From Cubamyces lactineus (taxonomy: Eukaryota > Basidiomycota > Agaricomycetes > Polyporales > Polyporaceae): a stretch of DNA of 64,000 bases. Each line of letters starts with the position of its first letter. Position 1 is the first letter of the stretch. Made by a program: the position numbers and the translations under genes. Under the pieces are notes generated by a model that ran no database searches, was not told where the DNA came from, and saw only the letters and a list, made by a program, of their open reading frames with translations. Location of the stretch: assembly GCA_022376465.1 (NCBI GenBank), contig JACDTU010000024.1, positions 332,936 through 396,935 on the forward strand. Direction: 5' to 3'. Below, piece by piece: positions 4,558 to 62,965 of the stretch.

Positions 4558-5145
4558 AATGACCTACCTGGCCCGCGCGGGAGGGAGGGGGCCCTTCGAT
4601 CTGGTGCGGTTTCTGCGTAGATGGCGCTGCGGCGTCTTGCGGGAAGAAGGAAAGGTCGGGCAAAAGCCTAGGACGTGTGCGAAGGACAGATAAAGTTGCC
4701 GAGCGGGGGAGACATCGGGCTCTTCGTACAGTGGATCGGGAAGGATGGAATAGGACAGCATACTGCTGCCTTCGTGGCTCAGCACAGGCCCATTCGTTAG
4801 TTACATTATCAGTCGGTTGATACCAGACCAATCCAGATGCTGTATTGTCCATAGATCGCAACCGGATGTGGCCTATCTATCACAACGTACAAACCGAGAG
4901 CATGCAATATCACGATCACGGCACCGTGTCCGATCTGGCAGGAGAGTTGGGGGTGTGGCATATCTGCTGACCGCGCATCGTACAGTACAGGCAATCCACG
5001 ATGTAGAACGGGAGCGTCTGAAGCGAGGCGCGGGGGAACTTCACCCGCGGAGGGGTCGTTGTTCGGTCGTGTATGATGTCCTAGCAAGTGGCGCACATCG
5101 TCCAAACGCTTCTTTCGCGAGAGCAGCGATGAAGCTACGGTGAGC
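4558..5145. other. intergenic space between convergent genes
   Basis: The MFS gene and the F-box gene converge here, so the space should hold both 3' ends. I see no coding signal, RNA gene or repeat. Confidence 0.6.
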
Positions 5146-7447: not shown

Positions 7448-10400
7448 ATGGGAGAGGAGAGGAGAAGGAGGAGGAGGAGGGGGAGTCGGAGTTGGCCATG
7501 GCGCGAAGCAGGCGGTGTTTAAGAGAGGGAGGAGGGAGAGAAGAACTGCGCTGAGCACCGTCAGTACGAAACGAAACGAAACGAAGAGAGATATCGGAGT
7601 CGGAGTTGCACAAACACTCTCTCGTCCGTTCGGACACGCCCTCCCTCCTCCCTCGTTCTCCCCCCGGCCTGGCCTTCCGACGCAGGCAATTGCTCGCACC
7701 AAGCACCCCCCGCGGCCCCGTACGCACCGCCGGGCGTGGACTGGGAATAAGGCGGAGGAAAGTGCTGGATGGAGGAGGAGGACAATGTCTCCCTCGCCCG
7801 CTTACGGCACATTTTGATCGGCGAACTACACTACCTGCCCGATTTGGAAGGACGGGCGATAGTTACCAGAGTGCGGCCTCTCTCCTGCTCTCTTCCTCCT
7901 CCTCCGCCGGCTCCCAGTCCTCCCACTTCCCTCCCCCGCCCGAGCCGACCTCCCCCTCCAAGTCCCCGTGCTCGTTTTGGGTGCTGCACCATTCGCGGGA
8001 GCAATCTACCGTCCGATCTCCATTTCCCCTTTTCCGCCCGCACTCGCATCCGACTCCCTTCCTCGCTAATCTCCCTTTCCCTGCAAGCCCATCAGCCACA
8101 GCCCGAAACATGGCCACTTCCCGGGCCTTCCTCTCGGCAGCGCTCTCTTCTTCTCCTCGCTCAGCACCTGCTTTTTCGCTATATCCTAATGTGCCTGGCC
8201 TCTTCTGCCATCTCCGCCCGCACTCCACGCCCACCTCTCTCGTATCATCGCTCTAGTATGCGTCCCACCGGTTCTATTTTCTCTCTGAGACATGCCTTTG
8301 TCGCGCCTCCGCCCTGGTCGTCCGCCTATACCTACAATTGTTCACCCATGACAGCTGTTCCGTATGTTTGCCCGAAATGGCTATGCCGTCACTTTCGCGT
8401 TCGTAAATATCCATTTCCCACCCTCTTTGTCAATCACTCCCACAGCCGTAATCAACCTTCGACTCCCCGTATTTCTACTCCGGATATGACCGCCCAACCC
8501 ACCCCTCTTGGCTTGTCGGTCAGCCACACAATATTTCTTCCTCTCTGCCGACGACTACTACGCCGCTTACGTGCATCTGAACCACTCGTTACCGGTAGGC
8601 AGCTCTCCTTTCCAGGGCCGCCTATCGCCTGAACGCCTCTCCTTCACAGACTCCCGCCACTGACGTAGATTTTTGGCCGCCGTTTACGATCGGTAGACGG
8701 CATCTCTGACAAACTGACTTGTTCCCTGTCAGGTACCTGCGCTCTCCTGCCGTACACCAATCTCTTATAACACTTCTTCAGAGCTCGAGCAGCCCAATTT
8801 ACGGCACTCAACGCCCATAATCATCCTGCACCCTGCGCTGCGCCTTCTCAGCCCTGTCACCGATCCACCAAGAGAACCTCAGGGCTGAGAACTGCTCCAC
8901 GCCGGTCTCACCCCCGACTCTCGCCCCTGACGAGAGGCATCACAGGCTGCGCTGCGTTCATGTAGCGAGGACGCTTCTAGCCGTGTCCGGGTCCTATCGC
9001 TGTCTCGACCTTACGACCTGCTGTTTCGCAAGAAGGCGGTTTATTCTGGCTCGAGGTCAGATGGATAGTCCCATGCCGCAAGAAGTGCAAGATTTTTACG
9101 GCCGGGGAGGAGACAGTCGGATGGGGAGCCCTCAGCATCGTCTTCTAGGTTGGTTTCTCCCGGCCACGCTCTCTAGCAAAGCGGCTGCGACCCGTCTTGT
9201 CAGACGGTGTCCGACAAGATTCGAGTGTCATACGTACACGCATTCTCTCGTCCCTGCATGAGACAGGCCGAAGCCAGAATAGTACGGTAGCAGGCGCAGA
9301 GGCGCATCTCCATATGCTATGCCCGTGTGCGATACTTCCGGGATCCCACCGTTTTCCGCGCAGGAAGCACATAGAGTGCGCCTCCCGCGCTGGTTGTGGC
9401 CCGGTATGAAAGACCTTCCAAAACGATTCATGGGCGACGTAAAAACACAGCTTCGAGAGGCGATCGAGATTGTCGGGTTCCAATCTCCGTCAGAGTTTTC
9501 CTTCGCCTGCAGTGTAGGCGAGATACTGGCCATGCACACGGTCCATGCTACCCCACCTGCGGGCCGGGCCCGTGCGCCTCGCCCAACACCAGTACGAGAC
9601 GTTATGCAGACCAGATAATTGGAACCCTAGGTCAGTGGCGCTATCATGCTCCGGCCTATCTCTTGGCGCGCAGCTTGGGAGGATCGCGAGCCAGTCCGGT
9701 AGCCACGACGGAGCGCCCTATGAACCCTGACCGCTCTGAGCAATAGGCACTTGGATGGCCGTCCTGGATCGTGATGTTCGGCGAACAGTGTGGACGGGTG
9801 CGCGTTCGCGCCGCGTTCCTGGTCCTCTTGTCCTGCTCCCGCCACTCCCTCCCCATCCCAGCTACGAGACAGGCAGAAACCAAGACTCGTTCGGGGCCTG
9901 CACCGCTTTTTACGTGCGTCCGCGCTTCGTGGTGGGCGTGTGCGGGTGACGCGACCCTGCCCATTACGCGGACATGGGTACTCCAGCTCGGCGCTGACGC
10001 TGATTGTGCGTTTGGAAAGGGGGCATCGTTCGCCGGAATTGCATCTTCTGCAACTTTACGAACTTTTCTCTCTCCTCGCGTAAGTCAGTGTGGATACCGA
10101 CAGCGTGGCGCCGTCCGGCTCGAGCGCACACCGCCGATGATAGGTAAGCGGTGAACGGATGTCCCTTTCTCGCCGGACTATTGTCTTAACGGGCATGGAT
10201 TGCTTCCGGCAGGTTCTAAACGAGGCGCGCGGCTGCGGGTGTCGAGAGCCTGTCGAACGCCTGCCTAGCCGCAAGGTGCGCTATCAGACCGTGATTGAGG
10301 ACGCAAGGACGATACACGCGCGCGAGCACCTCTTCCGCCACTGGCACCTGCAGCGTTGACCTAAGCGAGCTTGCGCTCAAGTCGTGCGGATGACGCGTTG

Positions 10401-13282
10401 AGTCCAGGCCTCTCAGTGCGTGTCACTTTCTTCCGTATTTCTTCCGCGGCGGAGTTTGTGCGTCTGCGCCCGTGCCGGACGCGTCGACGCGCGAAGATCA
10501 GGAGATTTAGGACACGGTCATGTGATCGTGTGCGTTCTGTCCCAAACAGGACGCCATCGCCCAATCACTCCTCTCGATATAGCAACGGTCCAAGGGTCTC
10601 CCCCCGGGCCAGTCCGGTCAGGTACTCTACCTCCCCCACACAGGGCTGCATTCTCTTCTCAGATGACCAGGTGCGCTGACCTCACCGGAACCCTCGCCTT
10701 TCCCCGCATTCTCGCGTCGTAATGCTCGTCACTGGCCAAAGGGTGGCGTCGAATACAACTCCGAGAACCGCGCAGGACGTGTAGAAGGGATACGGGGATG
10801 TCGCGTCTCCTGAGCGTGTATCGTGCTGGTTTTGAAATTCAGCCCTCTCTCTCGTTACGATGAGTCCAGACGATTCCGCGCAGGGAGCTCGCTGATAGGT
10901 TGTATTGGGGCGTCCGATGATACCGAAGCCGCGTTTTGGGGGTCTCCCCTTCATCCCGTCCGTCACGCGACGTCTCTCCGCTGACATTTCGCAACAATTA
11001 GGACAACGTGCAGGCTCGTGCCCGTCCGTACGCGATCATCTTGGGAACCCATTGCCATGTCGGACCAGAACACGCCCACACGAACAAACACGGCCAAACA
11101 TTGGTTGCAACAGCAGCCGCGGCGAGGACCATGCGGTGGCGCAAGCCGTTTGTCTCTTCCTTTGTCCTCGTACAGCCCCTCGCTGTTCTCTTTCACCCTT
11201 TGGACCTCTGCGACTTGTCTCTTGGACCACTCTTTGAGCTCTTTGACCACAGCGGAAACGGATGTGCCGCGCGAAGCAGCCTGATTGACTCGCCCGTTGG
11301 AATGAGGCTTGGACTCTCGGCAATAGACCGCAAGCATCAGATGAAGAAGCGCATTGTGCAACTCAGCGACTCCGCCCCTTTTCTCGGCGGCCTGAGCGCA
11401 ACCTACGGCACCGCTCGACTATCCATCCGCACCCTCCACGAGGGTGCAAGACACCCAGAGCAACGAGTCCCATTGTTCTTTATCTGATGACAAAGTGATG
11501 CGGTGCTCTCCTTGGGCCTGCGGAGTCTAAACCTTGGTAGCTCTCGCGTACTTAAGTCCCCCATCCTCTCGTCCTATCTCTCTCCCAGACCTATCGGATC
11601 CCCTCCAAGTACGTCCCCGTCCCCGTCCTCTTTCCCCTACTCATCGCTGACCTCCCCCGCCAGTGCCAGGAGAAAGTGGCACTTCGCCATCACCCAGCTG
11701 CCTGAGACCTGCACGAGCACCTTTGCCGGCACACCCTCAGAGCATCCGGTATGGCGAACAAAAAAGCTTGGGTCGGCTTCGCAGACAGTGCGTAGTTAAG
11801 CGTGCGTCCAGCGATTCAAGACGTCGGTGAAGATCAACAGGGCGACGTGACGCCGGCGCCGAAGAAGAGAGCCCCAAACGGGCGGCGACCAGCAAGTGCG
11901 CATGGCAGAGGGGCGGCTGGCTGGAAGGATCCCGGAGCGATGGCGCAGGCCTTCTCGCGGCCTCCGGGGTGAGTACTCGTCGCCGACCGAGGTCGATGGC
12001 GAGGAAACCAACGTGCGCCACATCGATCTTTGTGCGAGCGAGCTTGGTGAGTTCTCCCGTTGACTGTTGCTACCACGAGCCAAGGCTAATCCTAGCTTCT
12101 CGAAGCTGTCGATTGTAGCAGGAACTATCGATCTCTGGTTGGTGAGTTGGTCGTTCAGGTCCTCTTCTCTGCTTCTTCCGTGGCGATCTATTCCCCGATT
12201 GCGCGCCTTGCGTTCGCAGCCCTCAACCTCTGCGTGACACAACAGATTCTGTGCCAAGTATATACTTCGTATATTCTGCGCCGTGTTCAGGTCTTGAATA
12301 GCCGTCGTCAGTAGTGGTAGAGAGTATCGTCTTGGATGTCGGCGTACTTAGTCTCAATACATGCATTTGATATGCTGGATTACTGCGGCTATGGCCTTAC
12401 GCAGTCAGCTATCGTTAGACTTTTGGTGGCTGTCTCTTCCTGTGTCACCTGAGAGTGTCTTCGAAGAGGCTTAACCGGAAGCTTGCCACCAAACGAGCAG
12501 CGTCTCCGAGGCCAATGCCATAACATGGGCGCTTAGATCGTAGTGGCACGGCGCCACAGGCCGGCCGTGTTGAACGATTCGCGAGTCATGACTCGGACCC
12601 CTGCTCGTTCACCACCACTTTGGCGTGCCATCTGCACGATAATTGTGCGTCTAAAAACATGAGCTATGTGTTGCTGTGGTATATATGATACAGGTCAGAT
12701 ACTTCAAATCCTCACGATGGGAGTCTTGCTAGAATCGCCTCCGCTCCCATTGGTATGGGCCGCGTCAGGCTGTCACACAGGGCGGACATGAACATTAACT
12801 CGCCAGAGTGTACGCGAATTGTTGGAAGTTGGAACGACGACAATGGGTACACCTCACACGATAGTATTTTGTGGAATACTGAGAGGACTGCATTCCATAT
12901 ACTGCGATTGAGATTCCCTCCCCGGAATGCTCGTTTCCCAGACTGGTATGTGCCAACATTCCAAGCACATAACGACGCAACATCCGCTCCAACTTACATT
13001 CTTCTTCATTCTCTCTCAGTTCCGATGTGTGTACACTATGGAGGCGTTTTTTGAAACCGTAATACTTCCAATCGGGCGTGGTAACGTCGTTGACACAGGG
13101 AGGTCTCGTCTACTGGATGCCACTCCATCTCCTTGCATGCTCTTTATATCGAAGGTATTGGCCGCAAGACCCATGACGCAATTTCGGTTCGCCGCAGACG
13201 GCTGCTCCTGGACTATTGAGGTCATTACGGTCTGGAGGAACGACACCTCTCGTTCTGCATACGAGGGTGCTGCCCTGGCTCG
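7448..13282. other. long gene-poor intergenic stretch
   Basis: Nearly 5.9 kb without a gene I can support. Between about 7600 and 8300 the plus strand is extremely C/T-rich, which keeps several frames open by composition alone (for example 7769-8632). A possible short spliced frame begins with MANKKAWVGFADS near 11751 and could continue through a Lys/Arg/Pro-rich segment to about 11970, but I recognise nothing in it. No RNA gene, transposon end or tandem repeat is evident. Confidence 0.5.
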
Positions 13283-27867: not shown

Positions 27868-28183
27868 TGTAAAGATATGAAAATTTGTTGAGAAATTTGA
27901 AGAAATATTTGAGAGGGGAGTGCGATGAGTTGTTCGCCGCAACTTGTGCCTCTTCTTATAGTTGCGCAGGATCGTCTGCGCATTCTTGAGATGCTGTTCT
28001 GGCTCCCAAGAATTTTCCGATGCGGGCCAACCCTTCCAAGCCACGAGATACTGCTTTTGGGTACCTCTAGTATAGTGACTTAGGATCGCCTCTACCTCCC
28101 ATTCCTCCCCTTCAGTCGACTCTGGGGTTGGAACTGGTGGAGGGCGGATGTAGTCTGGGCTGTGCTCCTTTGTTGTGTGGTAC
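27868..28183 (-). pseudogene. E1 chromodomain end of pol (severed from integrase)
   Basis: Starts at the E2 insertion point with YHTTKEHSPDYIRPPP and carries the chromodomain: EWEVEAILSHYTRGTQKQYL, then VAWKGWPASENSWEPEQHL and NAQTILRNYKKRHKL. Chromodomains of chromoviruses bind histone marks and steer integration. The aromatic/acidic pattern is well kept. The preceding part of the protein (HPVFHTVLLTLY) lies 10.6 kb away at 38747 and joins perfectly once E2 and one copy of the GGTAC duplication are removed. Confidence 0.85.
28179..28183. repeat. target-site duplication of E2, left copy
   Basis: GGTAC directly ahead of the TG of the left LTR; the same five bases follow the right LTR at 38742-38746. 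Five bp is the usual Gypsy duplication. Removing E2 plus one copy restores E1's reading frame (LLTLY joined to HTTKEH). Confidence 0.92.
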
Positions 28184-28461
28184 TGTAAGGATTCCGTGCA
28201 ACTAGCACGGATCCACACTGGAATGTGCCACGAGCACATTCCGACATTCCGAAGGGGATGGCGCTAATTGCGCCATCCGCGTAGATTACAAACACTTGTA
28301 CTAGATCTATGCGAGCGTACGGCGCCCTAGACGTTCGGGGTCTGGGCGCCTGGTGGGTAAGTCTTTCTTACCCACCATCCTCACGAGTACGCCGAGCCCA
28401 ATACGAGCCCGGTCCAGAGTACTTGAGGATAGGGTGTGGAAGACACCCGTGAGTTTTAACA
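28184..28461 (+). repeat. 5' LTR of E2
   Basis: Runs from TGTAAGGATTCC to GTTTTAACA. Contains four inverted repeats: arm CCGTGC with loop AACTA at 28200; arm GGAATGTGC with loop CACGA at 28229; arm GGATGGCGC with loop TAATT at 28265; arm GGTGGGTAAG with loop TCTTT at 28362. An imperfect fifth starts at the GGCGCC of 28321. Nearly identical to 38463-38741. Confidence 0.93.
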
Positions 28462-28564
28462 CTTTTTTACTCTCCCGAGTAGCGAACAACAAGCCCGAAT
28501 TGGGCCCGACGTCACACGTCATCAAGAATCCCCCATTCCACCAACTCAACTTCTATCTCTAGAC

Positions 28565-29320
28565 ATGGCGTCTAGAGATTCTCCCACAGGAGAGGGGCAA
28601 CCATCACGGTTGTCCCCGAAGACAACTCGTCCTCCTCTCGCACCTCTTGCCACGTCGGCATCAGGTCCGAGCAGGTCCACCCCCTCGCAATTAGCGGGGG
28701 GTTCTTCACCTTTCGAATTGCTGCAAGCTGGCAGCGCGACGACCTCCAAGAAACCTTCACCTCTCGCTAGCAGAGCAGCTAGCAAGAGCCGGCCAAGCAG
28801 CAGATCATCAAACCGTTCAAACGCGAACAGTGACCGAGGTAAGCGAAGGGCTACCTCGCCCCGAGCATACAGAACTCCACCCGAGACAGAAGAGCCCGCC
28901 GAGCAATTAGTTCGCGCGGGTAACAAGCAATCACCTAGGTCGGATCACGAAGGACGATTGCAACAAGCAATCGAGTCGGGACAAGTGTCTAGACGTCAGT
29001 CAGAGCAAGGCAGCCAAGCGCTGCAGAAAGCCGCGATAGCCGGCTTACTTCGAGATGCGCGAGCACGATATAGCCAGCTCGCACAACAAGTGCAGCAGGC
29101 TGAAGAGCAATTCACAGCTCAAATAGAAGCTGTAATGGCTGCTACTGGGTTGTCCTTGGACTGGGAAGACGAGCGAGAAAACGACAAGTCGTCATTTCAT
29201 GAGGATGACGCCATGTCCTCCAGAGACGAACAGCAGGTGGACGATCTAGTCCAACCTGAAGAAAACGACCAGTCAGGCCCCGAAGAAGAAGGACCTCAAC
29301 GATTCGTGAGTGGAGTGTAA
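28565..29320 (+). CDS. E2 ORF1, probable N-terminal part of Gag
   Basis: 251-residue frame: Ser/Pro/Arg-rich first 120 residues (MASRDSPTGEGQPSRLSPK, then SRPSSRSSNRSNANSDRGK), a helical Gln/Ala-rich segment around residues 155-190 (ARYSQLAQQVQQAEEQFTAQ) and an acidic tail. It ends in UAA. Ten codons later, in the same frame, comes the Gag start, and the intervening codons (EALHRLDAGR) flow into Gag without a break. This suggests ORF1 and Gag were, or still are, one protein. The start codon sits in the 5-nt loop of a perfect 10-bp inverted repeat (arms 28555-28564 and 28570-28579), and the stop lies in the loop of another (arms 29310-29315 and 29327-29332). No domain is recognised. Confidence 0.7.
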   Translation: MASRDSPTGEGQPSRLSPKTTRPPLAPLATSASGPSRSTPSQLAGGSSPFELLQAGSATTSKKPSPLASRAASKSRPSSRSSNRSNANSDRGKRRATSPRAYRTPPETEEPAEQLVRAGNKQSPRSDHEGRLQQAIESGQVSRRQSEQGSQALQKAAIAGLLRDARARYSQLAQQVQQAEEQFTAQIEAVMAATGLSLDWEDERENDKSSFHEDDAMSSRDEQQVDDLVQPEENDQSGPEEEGPQRFVSGV

Positions 29321-29350
29321 GAAGCTCTCCACCGTCTTGATGCAGGACGA

Positions 29351-31639
29351 ATGCATCGTCTGCGAAGTGCCGGATTGGCGGAAGAGGAGCACTTCATTAG
29401 TACTCCTCAAACAAGCCCGTCGTATCATTCGGCCAGTGCCCAATTTGGACGCACCGAGGAGCAACGAGCCCCTCGGCGTAGTGTCGCGTTCGATGGGCTT
29501 GGTCCAAGTTCGATGCCGTCCGTTGAGGATTCGCTGGTTGCGGATCCCCAGCCTTCAGCATCGAGAGGTCCGGCATATAGGCAGACGGCGTGGACTTTGC
29601 CATTATCGGGACCGAGTGCCTGGGGTCCTCGTAGGACCTCGATGGCACCTACTATCACAGCGCCTATCTCGGGTTCACGCGAACCACGAGAAGACTTAGC
29701 CTACGTTGGCCCCATAGCCAACGTACGCGATGGTATAGGAGTCCAAAGGCTCCTTACCATGATAGATGAACAAGTGGGAAGTGATCCCACCGACGAGCCG
29801 CCTGCGTATTTGAAGCTGGCTAAATTGCCAGCTCCACCGCAATTCGAAGGCAAGGACGACGCCGACAAGTTCGAGGTCTGGCTTCAAAGCCTACTCGAAT
29901 ATTTCAGTACCCTGCGCCTAACTGGCAAAGGGTTCGATAAGGATCGTCTGCGACTAGCAGGCAATAGCCTAGGTGGCAACGCAGCCACCTGGTTCTACAA
30001 CACCATCAAGTCCCCGACGCGCGAGAAGACGCACTGGACGTTCGAAGAAGCCATAGTAGGCTTATATCGACGGTTCATTCACCGCGATATGCATTTGGTA
30101 GCAGAGCAGCAATTCGCTGCTCTGAAATACGACTCCACTAAGGGTGGAGTCGCAGCTCTTTACGAACAGATGCGCTTCCACGCCGACAAGATGTGGGAGA
30201 AGCCTACCGACTTCCAGATGCGCAAGAAACTGCTCGAAACATTACCCTACCAATTCGAGCAAACCCTCACTATATACAAAGGGCTATCTGCCCAGTATAA
30301 CACATTCTGGGAGATTTACCAGGCCGCGCTCGAATATGAGCAAAGCCTCCGAATTCTGCAAAGCCGCCGAAACTCGCGTGAAACATCGGGTACACAGGCT
30401 AGTACCTCTAGTTCAGGCAAAGCATCACGAGACGCTAAGTCTGGACGATCGCATGGAACATCACATCGTCAGCAACAACGAACCACTGCAAATAGCAGTG
30501 GCAAACCGGGATGGTCCTATCATAGACCATCCGACAATCGAAATTACCGTGCACCTCAAGCGAGTGCTTCAGGTACACGGCCCACTTCATCCACTAATGT
30601 ACCCCGCAATGAGCGCGGTACGGGTCCGGTGAAGTGCTTCGCATGTGGCCAAATAGGCCATTACGCAAGTGATCCAACCTGTCCGAAGTATGGGAAGCAA
30701 AATACTTCCCATAACGCGAGGATGTTCGCGCAGCAAGTAGTGCCCGAACCTCCAGCGGACGAAGAAGAGCCGGTTCCACTAGAACCTGCTGAAGTCCCTT
30801 CTAAGGAGGAAGCGGAAGAGGAACATCCCTTTTCCGAAACAATCCCTGAACCCGAAGCGGATTACCCCGAATCCGAATTCGGAGGTAATGGATCTCAATA
30901 CGAATCGGATCGAGAAGACTTACCCTCGCCGATATTCGAAGAAGAGATCGAATTCAATGGCATGCGCGTAGCAGCAATAAAAGAGATCGAAACTGATCTC
31001 TTGCGAGCCCATGCGATGGCCGTTCAACCAGAACGGAACATCCGGCATGGGTGGCTATACGATGCTAAGGTCCGAAGGTTGACAAGGCCTGAAGACCAAC
31101 CGAAGCGTAATGAGTACGCACAGCGCACACTATGTGCTGAGATACCCATCAATGGTATCAAAGCTCTGGCGTTATTCGATTCGGGTTGCACAACCGACTC
31201 GATGACACACGAGATGGCGTATCTGTGCAGAGCAGATCGCATCGACCTGAATGAACCCGTTGGGCTCCAACTAGGAACCAAGGGAAGTAGAACGCGCATC
31301 AATTTCGGTGCGCGTGCTACGGTACAGGTCGGCCCAGTCAAGGCTGACCACTACTTCGATGTAGTAGACATCGACAAATACGATGTCATCTTGGGTACCA
31401 TGTTCTGTCGAGAGCACAAAGTAGTGCTCAACTTTGGCAACGACACGGTAACGGTAAAGGGACAATCGATTAGATTGTTCGACCCGGCCGAGTACGAAAC
31501 GCGAAGACGACGTCAGGAAAATGACGTCGCAAAAGGAATTGCACAAAGCAATATCCCGCCACCTAAGGCTAATCGGCCTATGGTGGACAAGGGAAAGAAT
31601 ACAACCCAGTATTCTACGCCCACAGCATCCGCAAAGTAG
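29351..31639 (+). CDS. gag: E2 Gag with zinc knuckle and retropepsin domain
   Basis: 762 residues. A Ty3/Gypsy-type gag core spans about residues 155-340: PPQFEGKDDADKFEVWLQSL, then NAATWFYNTIKSP, LYRRFIHRDMHLVAEQQFAA and MRKKLLETLPYQFE. A nucleocapsid zinc knuckle CFACGQIGHYASDPTC near residue 430 has C-x2-C-x4-H-x6-C spacing, two residues longer than usual before the last Cys. An acidic linker leads to an aspartic protease with the catalytic triad DSG in ALFDSGCTTDSMTHEM (about residue 610) and the later hydrophobic strand YDVILGTMF. It ends in UAG, followed in the same frame by pol, so the protease is on the Gag side of the stop. It forms the virus-like particle and binds genomic RNA. Confidence 0.88.
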   Translation: MHRLRSAGLAEEEHFISTPQTSPSYHSASAQFGRTEEQRAPRRSVAFDGLGPSSMPSVEDSLVADPQPSASRGPAYRQTAWTLPLSGPSAWGPRRTSMAPTITAPISGSREPREDLAYVGPIANVRDGIGVQRLLTMIDEQVGSDPTDEPPAYLKLAKLPAPPQFEGKDDADKFEVWLQSLLEYFSTLRLTGKGFDKDRLRLAGNSLGGNAATWFYNTIKSPTREKTHWTFEEAIVGLYRRFIHRDMHLVAEQQFAALKYDSTKGGVAALYEQMRFHADKMWEKPTDFQMRKKLLETLPYQFEQTLTIYKGLSAQYNTFWEIYQAALEYEQSLRILQSRRNSRETSGTQASTSSSGKASRDAKSGRSHGTSHRQQQRTTANSSGKPGWSYHRPSDNRNYRAPQASASGTRPTSSTNVPRNERGTGPVKCFACGQIGHYASDPTCPKYGKQNTSHNARMFAQQVVPEPPADEEEPVPLEPAEVPSKEEAEEEHPFSETIPEPEADYPESEFGGNGSQYESDREDLPSPIFEEEIEFNGMRVAAIKEIETDLLRAHAMAVQPERNIRHGWLYDAKVRRLTRPEDQPKRNEYAQRTLCAEIPINGIKALALFDSGCTTDSMTHEMAYLCRADRIDLNEPVGLQLGTKGSRTRINFGARATVQVGPVKADHYFDVVDIDKYDVILGTMFCREHKVVLNFGNDTVTVKGQSIRLFDPAEYETRRRRQENDVAKGIAQSNIPPPKANRPMVDKGKNTTQYSTPTASAK

Positions 31640-34600
31640 AGGAGCGTGGTGCATTCCACGAAAGTGGAACCCTCCCGAACGCACCGCGCGACAAGCGACT
31701 TAATGTCGTCAGGAGGGGGAGGGGACGGCAACTCAGCCGTTAAGATTCCTGTACGACATCAAGGTCGGGCCAAAACAGACTCAGCCCCAAATATCAATGA
31801 AAGATTTGTGCCAACTAGGCACTCATCTACGGAACCCAGAAGAGACCGATGGGGTCAAGAAGATCCCTACGGAATGAACGAGATGCTTGATCGGATTGCA
31901 AAAGAGCAATGGGAAGATGAGATAATACGACGAAGCCACGTTGGCTTCGTCATAGACGAAAAAGAGGAGGAGCTAATCAAGCTCCGCGAAAAGTGGTATG
32001 CGAAGACGGAGGACATCATGCGTCCTCCGCCAGATGAATTACCTCCTTATAGGGAGATAAATCATCGCATTCCACTCATCGACGAACAGAAGAAGTACCG
32101 CTATCACCTACCTCGGTGTGCGGAAGTAGTCAAGCCCGCACTGATCGAGAAGATCAGGCGGTACGTTAAGGCAGGATGGTGGCGACATGCCACTGTGGAG
32201 CAAGCAGCTCCCCTGCTATGCGTAGCCAAGAAAGACGGCAAATTACGGACAGTTGTTGACGCACGTCAGCGTAACAACAATACGGTCCACGACCTCACGC
32301 CATTTCCGGACCAGGATCTGATCCGGATGGATGTCGCTCGAGCTAAGTATCGCTCGAAGATCGACTTATCCGATGCGTATGAACAAATACGCATAATAGC
32401 TGAGGACGTGTGGAAGACAGCGTTTGCCACTCCTTGTGGCACGTTTGTGAGCGAGGTCATGCAACAGGGTGACACGAACGCTCCATCAACGTTCCAACGC
32501 CTGATGACTTCCTTGTTCTGGGATTGCATTGGACGATTTGTCCATGTATATCTCGACGATATCTTTGTGTATTCGGACTCCATCGAGGAACACGAAAAGC
32601 ACCTGGAGATCGTCTTCGAGAAGCTACGCAAAGCGCAGCTGTATTTAAGCCGCAAAAAATGCGACTTATTCTCGAAGGACATGGACTGTCTCGGTCATCG
32701 AATAGATGATCGGGGACTTCACGCCGATATGGACAAGATGAGCAGAATCCGCAATTGGAGGACTCCTCGTTCGTACCAGGAAGTGCAACGCTTCCTGGGT
32801 CTAGTCAACTACCTCGCACACTTCATGCCTGATGTAACGGCGTACACCACGCCATTATCGGGTATGATTAGGAACGACAGACCTTTCGTCTGGCGCGCAT
32901 TGCACGACAAGTGCTTTGAGTCGATCAAAGCCTTGGCTTGCAAAGTTCCCATTCTCAAGCCGATCGACCCCAACAGGAATGAGCCTATTTGGCTCATTTG
33001 CGACGCTTCCGTATATGGGCTCGGTGCCCTATACGGCCAAGGACCTAACTGGCAAACCTGTCGTCCTGCTGGACTTCTATCTAAGAAGTTCACGAGTGCG
33101 CAACGAGCGTACCCCACTTATGAGCAGGAAGCTCTAGCAATTCTCGAAGGATTGATGAAGTGGGAGGACAAACTACTAGGACGACATGTCCACGTAGTAA
33201 CAGACCACAAGGCCTTGGAATTCTTGCAAGGGATACCTCGGCCCAACAGCCGACAAATCCGGTGGTACGAGTTTTTAGCTCGTTTCCAGTACGACATCAC
33301 GTACATCCCGGGCAAGTTGAACAAAGTAGCTGACTGCTTGTCACGCTACTATGAGAACGACAACTTCGATGAACCCGTCAACGAGTGGGACTACGTCAAC
33401 GCAGACGTACGTCTTGATCCGAATGGGGATTTTCTTCCCTTTTCGCGAATGATCGAGTTGAAGGCTAGTCGTATTTTGCGACGATCTGCAAGGCTAGCGG
33501 AGAAGCAAGAAGCTTCTCTTGCTGCAAAAGCCAAACTTCCAGAAGTTGTCGAAGATCGCGTTCAGGAAGCCCAACAGCTTTCTGTAGCCCGTCCACAAAC
33601 AGTGAACGAGGCTCCGAAGAAGGACGAAGATCCTACAGTAGGAGAACTCCTATCATCAGGACCTCCACTCAAGATTCGAGTGGAATCACAAGATGGATTC
33701 CATAACGCTATCCGAAAGGGATACGTTATGGACACGATGTTCAAGAAAATCGTCGAGGATCCGTCTCAGCACAAGGCCTTCACCATGCGTGAAGGTCTTC
33801 TCTACACTCAGAACCATAGCGGTAGCGAGGTACTATGTGTACCTCGCGTACTACTCAAGGCTAGGATGCTGCCCGAGCTAGTTATCGACCGTGCTCACGG
33901 CACGCTTGGTCATCTCGGGCCTCAACGCACGTCTGACTACGTTAGGCGATGGTTCTGGTGGCCTAGCCTACGCAAGGACGTAGATAAATTCTGCACATCT
34001 TGCGGCACTTGTCAGACCATTAAGGCGAGCAATCAGCTCCCTATGGGTCTCTTACATAGTTTACCAATTCCACGAATGCCGTGGAATTCGATTTCGATGG
34101 ATTTTGTGGGTCCTTTCCCGCCGTCGCACGGACACGATTATGTGTGGGTGATCGTCTGTCGATTAACTTCACTGGTACACTTAGTACCTATCAATACTAC
34201 TACTACCGCGGCCGAGTTGGCCATGGTCTATCTACGAGAAGTAGTGCGACTGCATGGACTGCCCGAGACTATTGTGTCTGACAGGGACAGCAAGTTCACG
34301 TCCAAATTTTGGCGCGAACTGCACCGGTTGATGGGGGCTAAATTGCTCATGTCGACCGCTTTTCACCCACAGACAGATGGACTTAGCGAGCGAACTATTC
34401 GTTCGGTCACGCAAATTCTGAGAGCCATGGTAGCTCCGGACCAGAAAGACTGGTACGATAAGCTACCCCTAGCCGAATTCGCCTTGAATTCAGCTACAAA
34501 CGCATCTACTGGGTTTGCTCCATTCGAGTTGACCTACGGCTACTTGCCGAAGTCAATGAGTGGTATCTCCACAGATACGCACTATCCCGGAGTGAAGGAG

Positions 34601-35179
34601 TACGCGCAACGAGCGCGTACTTATCTCGAGCAAGCACACGACGCATTGATCGATGCGCGAGTGTCGCAAACGTTCCACGCGAACAAACGAAGACGGCACG
34701 AGCCCGACTTCGAGGTGGGGGACAAGGTATACTTGTCCACCAAGAATTTAGCAATGCCGAAAGGACGAGCAAGAAAGCTCGTTCCCAAGTATATAGGCCC
34801 CTACACGATAATAGGAGCCTTCCCGGAGTCGTCCAACTACTTGTTGGACTTACCCGCTGAATTGAAGGAACGTCGGATACATCCGAAATTCCATGTGTCG
34901 CTACTAAGGCGACACGAGCCGAACGATGATGACTTGTTCCCTGGTCGAGAAGCACAGGCCTACTATGATGTAGGTCTAGACGACGAGCAAGAGTGGCTCG
35001 TCGACGAGATTATTGGACACGAGTGGGACGGCAAACGATGCCGTTTCCACGTACGATGGACGCTTGGTGACCATACATGGGAGCCATACGAGCATTGCAA
35101 AGAGCTCGTTGCTCTTGACAATTACTGTAACTTGATGGGGGTGAAGTCATGGCGGCAATTGCCTAGGCACAAGAGCTAG
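31640..35179 (+). CDS. pol: E2 Pol: reverse transcriptase, RNase H, integrase, chromodomain
   Basis: Open directly after the Gag UAG in the same frame; the first in-frame ATG comes later (31694-31703 region), so expression by stop readthrough is the simplest reading. RT: AKKDGKLRTVVDARQRNN, SKIDLSDAYEQIRI and the catalytic box VYLDDIFVYSD near residue 300. RNase H: ICDASVYGLGALYG, YEQEALAILEGL and VVTDHKALEFL. Integrase: zinc module HLGPQRTSDYV through CTSCGTCQ, then the D,D,E core with SMDFVGPFPP, IVSDRDSKFTS and HPQTDGLSERTI. The C-terminus has HPKFHVSLLR and a chromodomain with EWLVDEIIGHEWDGKRCRFH and WTLGDHTWEPYEHC. All catalytic residues I can check are kept and there is no internal stop. 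The UAG terminator lies in the loop of an 11-bp perfect inverted repeat (arms 35166-35176 and 35182-35192). Confidence 0.93.
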   Translation, partial: RSVVHSTKVEPSRTHRATSDLMSSGGGGDGNSAVKIPVRHQGRAKTDSAPNINERFVPTRHSSTEPRRDRWGQEDPYGMNEMLDRIAKEQWEDEIIRRSHVGFVIDEKEEELIKLREKWYAKTEDIMRPPPDELPPYREINHRIPLIDEQKKYRYHLPRCAEVVKPALIEKIRRYVKAGWWRHATVEQAAPLLCVAKKDGKLRTVVDARQRNNNTVHDLTPFPDQDLIRMDVARAKYRSKIDLSDAYEQIRIIAEDVWKTAFATPCGTFVSEVMQQGDTNAPSTFQRLMTSLFWDCIGRFVHVYLDDIFVYSDSIEEHEKHLEIVFEKLRKAQLYLSRKKCDLFSKDMDCLGHRIDDRGLHADMDKMSRIRNWRTPRSYQEVQRFLGLVNYLAHFMPDVTAYTTPLSGMIRNDRPFVWRALHDKCFESIKALACKVPILKPIDPNRNEPIWLICDASVYGLGALYGQGPNWQTCRPAGLLSKKFTSAQRAYPTYEQEALAILEGLMKWEDKLLGRHVHVVTDHKALEFLQGIPRPNSRQIRWYEFLARFQYDITYIPGKLNKVADCLSRYYENDNFDEPVNEWDYVNADVRLDPNGDFLPFSRMIELKASRILRRSARLAEKQEASLAAKAKLPEVVEDRVQEAQQLSVARPQTVNEAPKKDEDPTVGELLSSGPPLKIRVESQDGFHNAIRKGYVMDTMFKKIVEDPSQHKAFTMREGLLYTQNHSGSEVLCVPRVLLKARMLPELVIDRAHGTLGHLGPQRTSDYVRRWFWWPSLRKDVDKFCTSCGTCQTIKASNQLPMGLLHSLPIPRMPWNSISMDFVGPFPPSHGHDYVWVIVCRLTSLVHLVPINTTTTAAELAMVYLREVVRLHGLPETIVSDRDSKFTSKFWRELHRLMGAKLLMSTAFHPQTDGLSERTIRSVTQILRAMVAPDQKDWYDKLPLAEFALNSATNASTGFAPFELTYGYLPKSMSGISTDTHYPGVKEYAQRARTYLEQAHDALIDARVSQTFHANKRRRHEPDFEVGDKVYLSTKNLAMPKGRARKLVPKYIGPYTIIGAFPESSNYLLDLPAELKERRIHPKFHVSLLRRHEPNDDDLFPGREAQAYYDVGLDDEQEWLVDEIIGHEWDGKRCRFHVRWTLGDHTWEPYEHCKELVALDNYCNLMGVKSWRQLPRHKS

Positions 35180-35427
35180 TTGCTCTTGTGCCCTACCACT
35201 ACTAGTCGTAGTGGGAGGCAAAGCCGAAGAAGCCAAGTCTTCGAAATGGTGATGTCCACCATTTCAATAAGCGCCGGATACGATCACGAGACGAGAGGAC
35301 GCGACGCGTTACGCGTTAGCGCTGAATCTGGAGATTCAAACTCCACCAGCGCCAAACAGCGAGGACACGCGTTTTCGCTAAGTCTCCGTCTCTCGTGCCA
35401 GCCCTTCGCCAGCACTACACCACCACC
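35180..35427 (+). other. E2 inter-ORF spacer packed with inverted repeats
   Basis: Between pol and ORF3. Besides the terminator hairpin it holds arm CCACTAC with loop TAGTC (35196-35214), arm CGAAGA with a 7-nt loop (35225-35243), arm GAAATGGTG with loop ATGTC (35243-35265), arm ACGCG with loop TTA (35304-35316), and arm GAATCT with loop GG nested inside a GCGCTG/CAGCGC stem (about 35319-35355). No reading frame is evident, so the spacer may work as RNA, for example for ORF3 initiation. Confidence 0.6.
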
Positions 35428-37926
35428 ATGTCCAGCAACCAGCAACACCGTTCACCTCGCGGGCGACGACACTCGTCGCCGCCACTACCACCACCACTAC
35501 CGTATGGGACTCCAGGGGGCGAAGACGTCATGGAACAAGACCCGGGGCATTCGCTAGTTGCGGATGCCCCCCAGCTGCCGCCCAGCTACTTTGCTGGGCC
35601 ACAGCCTTTGCCGATGTCGGAACGACCGACACGATACGATCAGCCACCTCCCCCAGGATACAACTCGTATCCTGGACAAGGAGTCCACCCTCAACGTCAA
35701 GCTGCGCTGCCACACGCAGCGTACTTTGGTCAAGGGTCGTCCACTCAGACGGCCCACTTCCCTCAACTACCAACCGTGCCTGCGGGATCAAGTATGCCCC
35801 TGGGTATGCCTCCGCTAATGCCAATCCCGGGCATTCCCAACCTCATGTGGGAGGAGATCCCCGACTACCCTTTGCTAGTCGCGCACCGGGAAGGCTGTGC
35901 TTGTTGCATGGACTTCCTGCGGCACTATGCCGCCGCGACGAACGAAATGTCGTTCAGAGACGCACTCACGCGAGTCCAAACAGACTTGCAGAGGCGTTTC
36001 TGGGCGCATTTCGAGCAACACGCTCGGTCCTCAGGGGGAGGGGAGCGGGAACGAGAGCTCGAACGAGAACACGAGCGCGACGTCGGAAGGATCCGCGAGC
36101 TGCAACGAGCAGTTCGTGAATATGAAGAATTAGAACGAGCGAACGCCAGGCTGCGTGAAGAGCGGGATTGGCTCCAAGACGAGCTACGCGACGTCCGTTC
36201 AGACAATGAACGGCTTCGCGGTGAGCGCAATCGCATCCGCGAGACATTACAAAATTTATACCGCGAGCGCAATCAGCCTCGCGGCCCATATCAGACTCCA
36301 AGTTCCAATCCCGACCATCGTCATCGAGACCCACGCGAGGTCAGTCCACGACGACCAGCTCAGTCTCGAACCACCACAACGAGTGGTGTGCCTACGAGTC
36401 AAGCCACGACTGAGGCGGGGCCGTCGAGAAGAAGGTCGCCACCTCCGCAACGAGCGGAGGCGCAGCATACAGGACGAACAGCCTCGGCTGCTGGGTCTCA
36501 CCGATCCAGTCAGCCGGAGGCCGCGATATCCCAGTCCAAAGGCAAGCAGCCTGTGGGCCGTGACGACTTCGACAATTTGTCGGAATTGTCGTCAGACAGC
36601 GACGGCAATCCTGTCGACCGCGACAAGATCCAGAAGGCCATCATACGATCTCGTATGAGACGGGCGCGCACTGGTCGACCACCACCTGAGGTGGGACCAA
36701 TGCCGTCCGAAGACCGACCAGCGATCCCTGGTTGGCCTTACGACCTTATGGCGCCCCCAGTCGACACGGATCCGCGGTTAGCCAGCAATTGGACGTCATA
36801 CGTTCCAATAACCGCGTTGGAGGGCAATACGCTCATGCAGGCGGCCCGTGAGGGAAGTGGAGAGGCTCGTCATCGGTTGACGGATCTCCTACGCCAACTC
36901 ACGGAGCGTCCAGAGATGAACGGAGTAGAAGGTCTGCATGTTTGCCAGATGAGCTGGCGCAATCACAACAAGGATCGCGTCGCTTCCACCTCTACTGCCG
37001 TCAGCACCCGCGATCAGCGAGGCAACACGCCTCCTGATCTGGAGCATGCCTCCATCGACCATCTACCGCGCCCATTGGGACGTGGACACCACCCCGGCAA
37101 GACGTCAAAGTCGAAAGGCAAGCCGAAAGGGCCGAGCATGCCTAACCACTCGGACGCCCCCGAGATTTGGAGGCAATGGTATGTTGCCAATCCGGCACAT
37201 ACTCCTCGGTGGATGCTGGTGGATCGGGCAAATAGCCCGTCCGACACCAGCGTGGAATACCACCTCCTTGTTCGGCGCACACTTGGCCAAGGGGTGAGCA
37301 TCCAGGACCGAGCAGTATGGATTCGCTTATCGCACGTCCTATTCTCGGTACCTGGCATGTATAACTATATAGTCGCTAATGGCGGCTATCCTGTGCGCAA
37401 TCACGTCGAGACCGTGCGTTACCCCGGCCCCGTAGCCGAGGTCAACATCTTCCGCCTTGCTTGGTGGTATGCCTACTGTGGCATTACCGTCCAGCAAGCC
37501 AATGCACTACAGCCCTTAGCTGTACGTGCACGCAACGAGCGCATTGGACGAATGTTGGACGAGCCCGCGCCGTTCAACGACGACGAGTACAACTCCATGG
37601 ATGAGTTACCACTCATTCCTACGTCGCAGGACCTTGGCATGGAGCACCTCATCACGGGTGCTCCTCCTGTTCCCGTCATCGCTCCTACCACGGCTAACGC
37701 CGAACCCGTTGTGGTACGAGCTCCTGACGCTCCCGGCATGCCCGCCGCGCCTGTGCCTCACAACACTAGTGACGGCAACGTACCTGCGCCCACGGTCACC
37801 ATCGACAACCCGGTGGTCGACGAAGACCATGAGATGGCCGACCAAAGTGCGGTCGTACCACAGGAGGACGAAGGCATCCAATCGACGCCGCACCCGTCGC
37901 CGCTCAATACCCCGCCGTCGGCGTAG
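35428..37926 (+). CDS. E2 ORF3, unrecognised 832-residue coiled-coil protein
   Basis: I do not recognise this protein. Start chosen at the ATG of MSSNQQHRSPRGRR. Layout: residues 1-140 Pro-rich and disordered; a Cys/His patch AHREGCACCMDFLRHY near residue 155; a strongly charged heptad-like coiled coil at about 205-285 (GRIRELQRAVREYEELERAN, RLREERDWLQDELRDVRSD and on); a basic Ser/Arg/Pro linker; DDFDNLSELSSDSDGNPVD; a Trp/Tyr-rich, probably folded block at about 575-715 (APEIWRQWYVANPAHTPRW, DRAVWIRLSHVLFSVPGMY, FRLAWWYAYCGITVQQ); an acidic Pro-rich tail. It is intact, uses the same hairpin-rich style as pol, and lies in E2's own frame order, so it belongs to the element. A structural, RNA-binding or targeting role is possible; no membrane segment argues against an envelope. 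Confidence 0.78.
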   Translation: MSSNQQHRSPRGRRHSSPPLPPPLPYGTPGGEDVMEQDPGHSLVADAPQLPPSYFAGPQPLPMSERPTRYDQPPPPGYNSYPGQGVHPQRQAALPHAAYFGQGSSTQTAHFPQLPTVPAGSSMPLGMPPLMPIPGIPNLMWEEIPDYPLLVAHREGCACCMDFLRHYAAATNEMSFRDALTRVQTDLQRRFWAHFEQHARSSGGGERERELEREHERDVGRIRELQRAVREYEELERANARLREERDWLQDELRDVRSDNERLRGERNRIRETLQNLYRERNQPRGPYQTPSSNPDHRHRDPREVSPRRPAQSRTTTTSGVPTSQATTEAGPSRRRSPPPQRAEAQHTGRTASAAGSHRSSQPEAAISQSKGKQPVGRDDFDNLSELSSDSDGNPVDRDKIQKAIIRSRMRRARTGRPPPEVGPMPSEDRPAIPGWPYDLMAPPVDTDPRLASNWTSYVPITALEGNTLMQAAREGSGEARHRLTDLLRQLTERPEMNGVEGLHVCQMSWRNHNKDRVASTSTAVSTRDQRGNTPPDLEHASIDHLPRPLGRGHHPGKTSKSKGKPKGPSMPNHSDAPEIWRQWYVANPAHTPRWMLVDRANSPSDTSVEYHLLVRRTLGQGVSIQDRAVWIRLSHVLFSVPGMYNYIVANGGYPVRNHVETVRYPGPVAEVNIFRLAWWYAYCGITVQQANALQPLAVRARNERIGRMLDEPAPFNDDEYNSMDELPLIPTSQDLGMEHLITGAPPVPVIAPTTANAEPVVVRAPDAPGMPAAPVPHNTSDGNVPAPTVTIDNPVVDEDHEMADQSAVVPQEDEGIQSTPHPSPLNTPPSA

Positions 37927-38450
37927 ACGTACTCGAGCACCGTGCGCTACTTCATACTTGTATGATATTGCATCCCCGCGCGCGAGCTCCCCACTCGCGC
38001 GCGTCGAGAACTACGGGGAAAGCTCGTCGCTTCGATTCGCGACGAGCACAAGGGCACTCAGTGATCGTCACACTGAGTGTCATCGCCTCATGACGATATA
38101 GCTGCTTCGATTCGCAGCCTTTCAATTATACACCCTCCGAGTTGCAACTAGCAACTCTATGGGATAGTAAGACTCACCATCCTACTATTCCTTCTCTACT
38201 ACAAGGTGAAAAGGGACGCTTCGTTTCGCGTCCCCAATGGATACTATTCCACGCTCACTTGGCGTGTAAACTCAAGTGACAAGCAGCTTCGATTCGCTGC
38301 ATATTGTATATAATCGCGCTATCGCGCGTTTGACTCATATTACCACCGTTCCTGGCCTCGCCTAGCCATGAACGCAGTCAACAGGCGTATTGCCGCTTTG
38401 ATTCGCGGCTGTAAATATTCACTTTATATTCGAGACCCGTACACGAGTCT
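37927..38450 (+). other. E2 3' leader: array of inverted repeats, five with a TTCGATTC-like loop
   Basis: Non-coding. Perfect inverted repeats follow one another almost without gaps: arm TCATAC (37952), arm CGCGCGCGAG (37977), arm GCTCGTCGC with loop TTCGATTC (loop 38031-38038), arm CACTCAGTG (38055), arm GCTGC with loop TTCGATTC (38106-38113), arm GAGTTGC with loop AACTA (38146-38150), arm GGGACGC with loop TTCGTTTC (38220-38227), arm CACGC (38250), arm GCAGC with loop TTCGATTC (38288-38295), arm CGCGC (38315) and arm GCCGC with loop TTTGATTC (38397-38404). Confidence 0.85.
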
Positions 38451-38462
38451 GAAGGGGGAGAG
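38451..38462 (+). other. polypurine tract of E2
   Basis: GAAGGGGGAGAG ends exactly at the TG of the right LTR and should prime plus-strand DNA synthesis. Confidence 0.85.
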
Positions 38463-38741
38463 TGTAAGGATTCCGTGCAACTAGCACGGGATCCACACTG
38501 GAATGTGCCACGAGCACATTCCGACATTCCGAAGGGGATGGCGCTAATCGCGCCATCCGCGTAGATTACAAACACTTGTACTAGATCTATGCGAGCGTAC
38601 GGCGCCCTAGACGTTCGGGGTCTGGGTGCCTGGTGGGTAAGTCTTTCTTACCCACCATCCTCACGAGTACGCCGAGCCCAATACGAGCCCGGTCCAGAGT
38701 ACTTGAGGATAGGGTGTGGAAGACACCCGTGAGTTTTAACA
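38463..38741 (+). repeat. 3' LTR of E2
   Basis: Matches the left LTR except for one extra G after the first hairpin, C instead of T in the loop of the third (TAATC), and T instead of C in the GGCGCC word. It keeps all four strong hairpins. It is followed by the target duplication GGTAC. Confidence 0.93.
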
Positions 38742-38746
38742 GGTAC
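38742..38746. repeat. target-site duplication of E2, right copy
   Basis: GGTAC, identical to the five bases before the left LTR; E1's integrase sequence resumes here on the minus strand. Confidence 0.92.
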
Positions 38747-62890: not shown

Positions 62891-62965
62891 GTCGTCGCGC
62901 GAAACGGCGTCGCGCGAAATGTCGTCGCGCGAAATGTCGTCGCGCGAAATGTCGTCGCGCGAAAT
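62891..62965. repeat. 15-bp minisatellite, five units
   Basis: Five consecutive units of GTCGTCGCGCGAAAT type; the first ends in C and the second begins GGCG. A shortened, decayed unit precedes it (62879-62890), and GTCGCGCGAA reappears near 63283. Its length is a multiple of three and one minus-strand frame reads the pentapeptide ISRDD repeatedly, but no gene context supports translation. Confidence 0.9.

Follow-up and report, generated by a model that had tools for sequence, protein, structure and literature searches.

The stretch of DNA considered here (the window) comprises 64,000 nucleotides (nt) from the basidiomycete Cubamyces lactineus (GenBank assembly GCA_022376465.1, contig JACDTU010000024.1, positions 332,936 to 396,935, forward strand). 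At positions 28184-38741 it carries an element, called E2, which is a Ty3/Gypsy long terminal repeat (LTR) retrotransposon densely set with short perfect hairpins in its coding as well as its non-coding parts. E2 and its flanks consist of the following parts, with lengths in amino acids (aa) or base pairs (bp) and with RT denoting reverse transcriptase and ORF an open reading frame:

28179..28183, unstranded, target-site duplication GGTAC (left), identical to the 5 bases at 38742-38746
28184..28461, +, 5′ LTR, TG...CA, with four perfect hairpins (self-alignment; ends read)
28565..29320, +, small 5′ ORF, 251 aa, upstream of gag
29351..31639, +, gag-protease ORF, 762 aa (Ty3 capsid, CCHC, aspartyl protease; all below Pfam's curated cut-off)
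31646..35179, +, pol ORF, 1177 aa (RT, RNase H, integrase, Tf2-type SH3)
35395..37926, +, ORF3, 843 aa, downstream of pol
37927..38462, +, 3′ untranslated stretch with five perfect hairpins and a terminal polypurine run
38463..38741, +, 3′ LTR, 279 bp (self-alignment; sequence read)
38742..38746, unstranded, target-site duplication GGTAC (right)

Like other Ty3/Gypsy elements, E2 has LTRs within a 5-bp target-site duplication and gag-protease followed by RT, RNase H and integrase, with the matches for protease, capsid and integrase core lying below Pfam's curated cut-off. Unlike them, it possesses extra ORFs before gag and after pol, and neither the 251-aa 5′ ORF nor the 843-aa ORF3 gave a Pfam or NCBIfam match above cut-off. 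The two LTRs are 98.9% identical by self-alignment. Within the 36.3 Mb of genome searched, two further copies, on C6 and C21, are 99.8% identical to E2 where aligned, the C21 copy being interrupted in ORF3; by the look of these near-identical copies, E2 was active recently. Decayed copies on C12, C1, C40 and C7 are 70-88% identical in their aligned pieces, and the matches of the C40 copy lie kilobases apart, as though split by insertions. No relatives were found in viral contigs. The leader sequence ACTCTCCC (28469-28476) is complementary to GGGAGAGT at the edge of polypurine tract and LTR (38456-38463).

Unless stated otherwise, a hairpin is a perfect inverted repeat with arms of at least 7 bp and a loop of 3-8 nt. 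By this measure E2 contains 56, with arms of 7-11 bp (53 without the 3′ LTR), where the original prediction, made by eye from the letters of this stretch, had put the number at 45 or more. Dinucleotide shuffles of E2 (n = 40) gave 3.7 ± 2.3 and at most 10, and the observed number is about 15 times chance. The remainder of the window (53,442 bases) holds 33. Hairpins with arms of at least 6 bp cover 18% of E2, and 40 of the 56 lie wholly within ORFs. Per kilobase, there are 11-14 hairpins in the LTRs, 9 in the 3′ untranslated stretch, 9 in the spacer between pol and ORF3 (2 hairpins), 5.7 in gag, 5.1 in pol, 3.2 in ORF3 and 1.3 in the small 5′ ORF; the same scan found none in the 103-base leader. 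The catalogue below was taken from the scan, with 33700..33731 read in the sequence; "motif" marks loops of the type C-AANNA-G and "reverse motif" those of its reverse complement, C-TNNTT-G.

28193..28211, +, arm 7, loop AACTA (motif)
28220..28242, +, arm 9, loop CACGA; LTR, second copy 38500-38522
28256..28278, +, arm 9, loop TAATT (reverse motif); LTR, second copy 38536-38558
28351..28377, +, arm 11, loop TCTTT; LTR, second copy 38631-38657
28555..28579, +, arm 10, loop ATGGC
28955..28973, +, arm 7, loop AACAA (motif)
29702..29725, +, arm 9, loop CCCATA
29814..29833, +, arm 7, loop TAAATT
29971..29990, +, arm 7, loop AACGCA
30102..30124, +, arm 9, loop AATTC
30130..30152, +, arm 9, loop TAAGG
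30483..30501, +, arm 7, loop AAATA (motif)
30509..30532, +, arm 8, 8-nt loop
30689..30713, +, arm 9, 7-nt loop
30981..31002, +, arm 8, loop GAAACT
31356..31387, +, two overlapping hairpins, arms 7 (31356-31374, 31367-31387)
31508..31529, +, arm 8, loop GGAAAA
31596..31615, +, arm 7, loop AACCCA; in three copies loop heavily altered, stem almost intact
31929..31951, +, arm 10, loop CGT
32007..32029, +, arm 8, 7-nt loop
32373..32394, +, arm 8, loop GAACAA; in copy C40 one pair C-G changed to T-A
32776..32798, +, arm 8, 7-nt loop; stem identical in C12 and C1
32913..32931, +, arm 7, loop GTCGA
32978..32998, +, arm 8, loop TATTT (reverse motif)
33500..33523, +, two overlapping hairpins, arms 7 (33500-33518, 33504-33523)
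33664..33702, +, two overlapping hairpins, arms 7 (33664-33684, 33681-33702)
33700..33731, +, 13-bp stem with one bulged C, loop GAAAG
33777..33795, +, arm 7, loop CATGC
33825..33847, +, arm 9, loop TATGT
34066..34088, +, arm 9, loop AATGC
34599..34621, +, arm 9, loop AACGA (motif)
34720..34738, +, arm 7, loop GTATA
34831..34849, +, arm 7, loop TACTT (reverse motif)
34895..34915, +, arm 7, 7-nt loop
34981..35003, +, arm 8, 7-nt loop
35166..35192, +, arm 11, loop TAGTT, containing the pol stop codon; hairpin lacking in copy C12 (29-base gap)
35196..35214, +, arm 7, loop TAGTC
35243..35265, +, arm 9, loop ATGTC
35462..35480, +, arm 8, loop CAC
35580..35599, +, arm 7, loop TACTTT
35653..35675, +, arm 9, loop AACTC
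36195..36213, +, arm 7, loop GACAA
36442..36460, +, arm 7, loop AACGA (motif)
36570..36591, +, arm 8, loop TGTCGG
36641..36658, +, arm 7, loop ATCT
37641..37664, +, arm 8, 8-nt loop
37977..38003, +, arm 10, 7-nt loop
38022..38047, +, arm 9, loop TTCGATTC; like loops on shorter stems at 38105, 38219 (TTCGTTTC), 38287 and 38396 (TTTGATTC)
38055..38079, +, arm 9, 7-nt loop
38139..38157, +, arm 7, loop AACTA (motif)
38213..38234, +, arm 7, loop TTCGTTTC
38500..38657, +, three 3′ LTR hairpins (38500-38522, 38536-38558, 38631-38657), LTR copies of 28220, 28256 and 28351

The eight hairpins quoted individually in the original prediction all lie where it had placed them, except that the one at 31929..31951 closes one pair further, to 10 bp with the loop CGT; the bulged 13-bp stem at 33700..33731 is present as well. 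Its description of the loops as mostly of 5-8 nt was right but loose, since 29 of the 56 loops are exactly 5 nt long, where 50 kb of the window would lead one to expect 0.4. The stem at 28193..28211 is altered by one extra G in the C6 copy, the C21 copy and the 3′ LTR.

The hairpins in coding sequence were compared with synonymous-codon shuffles (300 per ORF, arms of at least 7 bp, loops 3-8), the control on which the original prediction had staked its claim of an excess. Gag contains 13 hairpins (shuffles: mean 1.05, maximum 6), pol 18 (mean 1.37, maximum 6) and ORF3 8 (mean 1.20, maximum 5), so that none of these numbers was reached in any of the 300 tries. A long interspersed nuclear element (LINE) carries 1 hairpin versus 1.4 in codon shuffles, and five other Gypsy sequences of the genome carry 0 to 5 versus 1.1 to 1.7, all within the shuffles; L031 was excluded from this count, having only a 129-base frame. 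Mild excesses within the shuffle range were seen with arms of at least 7 bp in L035 and L048 (5 each versus about 1.4) and with arms of at least 6 bp in L030 (13 versus 6.3) and L035 (11 versus 5.1). The earlier impression that such a density is not general was borne out by these controls: neither the LINE nor the five other Gypsy sequences go beyond a mild excess. Chance, base composition or codon use can be given next to no credence as the source of the hairpins, being ruled out by both kinds of shuffle and by the other elements of the genome; nothing was found in their favour.

A second Gypsy element of the genome, C15 (L021, L022), shares the hairpin density, which is beyond what the window alone could show. 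Its ORFs are intact (gag 1243 aa, pol 1175 aa, ORF3 799 aa); a chromodomain was matched only weakly, below cut-off. Its pol is 56% identical to that of E2 in aligned residues (58% in the genome search), and the two ORF3 proteins are weakly related (E 1e-4) around an HR(E/Q)GCAxC stretch. Hairpins number 15 in its pol (1.8 in codon shuffles), 12 in gag (2.2) and 8 in ORF3 (1.9), each above the maximum of 300 shuffles, and they carry other loops than those of E2. Hairpins of the two elements coincide within 6 nt of the homologous position in 2 of 18 cases in pol (0.8 expected, P 0.19), 2 of 13 in gag (0.5 expected, P 0.08) and 0 of 8 in ORF3. The positions are therefore not clearly homologous, which implies that the density is shared and the positions turn over. 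The hairpin pattern is real; of the elements tested, only one lineage shows it.

Some RNA viruses possess genome-scale ordered RNA structure (GORS), in which folding throughout the genome, coding parts too, surpasses that of shuffled sequence, at positions that are not fixed between relatives. E2 resembles them in that it folds better than shuffled sequence, coding parts included, in that its coding hairpins exceed amino-acid and codon demands, and in that its positions differ from those of C15. Minimum-free-energy folding in 100-nt windows, with energies compared with dinucleotide shuffles only, gave mean z values of -2.55 for the sense strand of E2 (105 windows) and -2.21 for the antisense strand, and of -1.61 (103 windows) and -1.28 for C15; z was below -2 in 56% of the E2 sense windows. 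Five control sets (window 1-12000, the LINE and three other Gypsy elements, of which L030 was two overlapping loci joined, with part counted twice) ranged from -0.49 to 0.07 on the sense strand and from -0.53 to 0.07 on both strands. Energies below those of the shuffled controls were found along E2 at 60, 100 and 120 nt. Sense folds better than antisense by 0.34 ± 0.14 (E2) and 0.33 ± 0.11 (C15) at 100 nt and by 0.32 ± 0.12 and 0.31 ± 0.14 at 120 nt, which corresponds to 2.2 to 3 standard errors. In line with a sense-strand effect, the loops of C15 are rich in A and C on this strand (139 of 206 bases, P 6e-5; 27 loops with an A/C majority versus 7 with a G/T majority). Within E2, the codon register with the fewest synonymous sites is rare among the coding hairpins (6 of 40 versus 13.3 expected). 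E2 is unlike GORS in its host, an LTR retrotransposon, in its short perfect hairpins with a preferred 5-nt loop, and in a strand preference that is modest.

The preferred loop emerges when the C-NNNNN-G sites of E2 are compared. At 25 of the 42 C-AANNA-G sites (one pair of them an LTR duplicate), four or more of the five following pairs are Watson-Crick, and the same holds for 9 of the 14 sites of the reverse complement C-TNNTT-G. With one motif base changed, pairing falls to 3 of 44 (CA[CGT]NNAG) and 1 of 32; C-T[CGT]NTT-G, a subset of C-TNNTT-G, keeps 3 of 8 paired, and loops with pairable ends stand in stems in only 7 of 161 cases. The ORFs contain 35 C-AANNA-G sites versus 20.0 ± 3.8 in codon shuffles and 12 of the reverse complement versus 5.9 ± 2.1. 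Thirteen coding sense motifs lie outside hairpins, where the shuffles give 20.0 motifs in all; for the antisense motif the figure is 5 versus 5.9, without depletion. Strict conservation within the loop (position 4 hypervariable, 5 conserved) was dropped as proof of recognition, being largely a matter of codon position. It is very improbable that AANNA loops pair with TNNTT loops in kissing contacts which would compact the RNA. Both kinds of loop are present and are reverse complements by definition, but such complementarity is automatic for a motif seen in both orientations, the two kinds differ in number (25 hairpins to 9) and the motif is absent from C15. Another type of loop, GC-TTYGWTTC-GC, occurs five times in the 3′ untranslated stretch (38022-38410), all five of the element being sense-oriented; we take it to resemble the T-loop sequence of transfer RNA.

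The history of the hairpins was followed in the decayed copies. Thirty-eight of the 56 hairpins can be compared over their whole length with one or more of the copies C12, C1, C40 and C7; 18 could not be judged. For 27 of the 38, a stem with at most two non-Watson-Crick pairs is found in at least one decayed copy (18 of 24, 11 of 18, 8 of 13 and 4 of 7 in the respective copies), compared to 19 of 1056 when stems were slid to other places, so the hairpins are not fresh. With arms of at least 6 bp, both-sided changes that leave Watson-Crick pairing intact outnumber those in shuffles, at 10 versus 4.5 in C12 (P 0.008) and at 8 versus 3.3 in the decayed copy C8 compared with C15 (P 0.006). Changes in the decayed copies (C12, C1, C40, C7, C8; L013-L020, L054) are mainly C>T and G>A, with C>T commonest before G, a decay of the CpG type. 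An origin of the hairpins as insertions was considered and is not supported: the gap share of hairpin codons compared with random placement is 0.061/0.061 (E2) and 0.116/0.061 (C15) in pol, and 0.163/0.066 (E2) and 0.416/0.428 (C15) in gag, with a standard deviation of about 0.05 (0.12 for C15 gag).

We give a probability of roughly one half to the reading that selection, acting along most of the genomic RNA of E2, favours its folding into short perfect hairpins. Selection of this kind explains the age of the hairpins, the sense-strand effects and a density shared at changing positions. Further points in its favour are the sense orientation of all five TTYGWTTC loops, the rarity in E2 of the codon register with the fewest synonymous sites, the even distribution of changes between the two arms in C12, and the both-sided changes in C12 and C8. 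The hairpins would be strung along the RNA as a chain, one to roughly 200 nt, gag, pol and ORF3 included, and the structure would act in the sense RNA. Each hairpin would be dispensable and replaceable, with the density maintained while positions turn over. The chain might serve condensation of the RNA and its uptake into Gag particles, and possibly offer some protection from nucleases and silencing; the preferred contact in E2 may be the loop motif C-AANNA-G. Template switching may supply new hairpins, which selection would retain.

Several observations weigh against this reading. The sense-antisense gap is smaller at 60 nt (0.15 ± 0.09 in E2, 0.14 ± 0.09 in C15) and inconsistent in decayed copies (C12 -0.13 ± 0.17, C1 -0.50 ± 0.16, C8 +0.19 ± 0.19). 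The loops of E2 lean to A and C without significant strand bias, those of C15 lack the motif (6 of 22 have A as their second base), C15 shows no codon-register bias (12 of 35) and the small 5′ ORF no hairpin excess (1 observed; codon shuffles: mean 0.33, maximum 2). Stems with one mismatch do not prefer G-U, G-T and A-C standing at 15 to 15 in E2 and 9 to 12 in C15, and the G-U share of predicted E2 structures at 120 nt is 0.074 versus 0.104 in shuffles, with G-U pairs fewer than in shuffles on both strands. The motif is equally effective in both orientations, unlike known stable RNA loops, which according to PMC8794818 are 8- to 66-fold one-sided. The both-sided changes are not significant in C1 (9 versus 5.7, P 0.08) and C40 (5 versus 3.7, P 0.30), absent from C7, and no longer in excess in C12 at arms of at least 8 bp (1 versus 0.7). 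Moreover, of the double changes, 20 of 24 (E2 family) and 8 of 8 (C8) run in the C>T/G>A direction. Since every CpG of one arm has its counterpart on the opposite arm, these could be correlated decay and are weak proof. Reduced substitution in stems was dropped as proof of selection, as stems picked for their perfection in E2 are expected to show low divergence. The original prediction had offered selection for a folded genome as one of two causes; it is favoured by the folding excess in two lineages, the better folding of the sense strand and the loop bias of C15, and opposed by the missing G-U preference and the two-orientation motif. Selection on RNA alone does not explain Watson-Crick stems without G-U tolerance or a motif used in two orientations.

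These latter features would be expected if the RT of this lineage wrote the hairpins itself, by folding the nascent strand on a short seed (C-AANNA-G or its complement), copying 5-10 nt of itself and returning, the hairpins being by-products tolerated where proteins allow. This explanation, close to the cause that the original prediction preferred (intramolecular template switching during reverse transcription) and that the results support only in part, is possible but in our view more doubtful than selection. E2 has perfect reverse-complement arms around short loops, as template switching would leave, and a motif in both orientations is expected if the same enzyme makes both strands. The shortage of coding sense motifs outside hairpins, the turnover of positions between E2 and C15, the restriction of the strong effect to one RT lineage among those tested and the slightly lower conservation of hairpin-coded amino acids (4 of 4 comparisons, each within 1.5 standard deviations) agree with it. 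As is known from PMC8794818, template switching can also create RNA stems and maintain them. On the other hand, the stems are not fresh, and the clustered change in one arm that an overwriting event would leave was not found in the four copies, where ancestors were not reconstructed and many hairpins are uncovered. Summed arm differences in C12 are 31 versus 42.7 ± 5.3 under random placement, and C1, C40 and C7 behave as random. Loop inversions are hardly seen either: 4 of 89 changed loops are nearer the inverted form, and three of these belong to a single site. Among the near-identical copies three stems differ, and they show broken pairs or wobble and no repair. Conversion would preserve loops, yet the motifs exceed codon shuffles in both orientations; this point against conversion holds in a weak form, the stronger argument that the motif excess equals the hairpin number having been given up, as the base-composition estimate behind it was too low compared with the 20.0 of the codon shuffles. 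The sense-strand effects, in the loops of C15 and the folding of both elements, are left unexplained, and the excess of A-T over T-A in E2 stems (A share 0.60) opposes the U-A excess derived for intrastrand switching in PMC8794818.

A mixture in which switching supplies and selection keeps the hairpins would fit. Another reading, for which our confidence is low, is an RT that writes palindromes by sequence-prompted switching at C-AANNA-G on either strand, with structure arising by mutation pressure and used afterwards for packaging or protection. It is unlikely that the hairpins act in single-stranded complementary DNA (cDNA), where the minus strand would fold during reverse transcription or a DNA-binding protein would read them. 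The missing G-U preference and the use of the motif in both orientations agree with a role in cDNA, and the sense-strand bias of C15 loops and of folding does not. We know of no demand for cDNA folding in LTR retrotransposons, which also counts against it.

Selection on the RNA has a further parallel in the dispersed packaging signals of bacteriophage MS2 and others, where many hairpins lie along the genome. The hairpins of E2 might be likened to them by their spread and shared loop motif, but this motif is not strand-specific and is missing in C15. Template-switch mutations, which create and maintain RNA hairpins, are described in PMC8794818 for host DNA replication in RNA genes; the perfect Watson-Crick stems and short loops of E2 resemble what is described there, and its motif could promote switching, whereas E2 shows hardly any loop inversions and gave no sign of an overwritten arm. 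Among the matches listed from the open-licence literature, as far as their titles and abstract openings go, none describes hairpin arrays of this kind for an LTR retrotransposon. If the hairpins are selected, E2 would be an LTR retrotransposon whose coding sequence carries a genome-wide RNA structure, with a loop motif that makes the question of RNA packing or hiding testable. If they are mutational, they would show how an entire genome can be shaped by an enzyme that copies itself backwards. In both cases, one genome offers a natural comparison between two elements that have the trait and related ones that do not, such as the five other Gypsy sequences, which differ from E2 in lacking its strong excess.

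Two minor observations may be added. Purine-rich 5′ arms are only weakly preferred (30 hairpins versus 20). Outside E2, a short tandem array of TCGCGCGA hairpins lies at 62895-62962.

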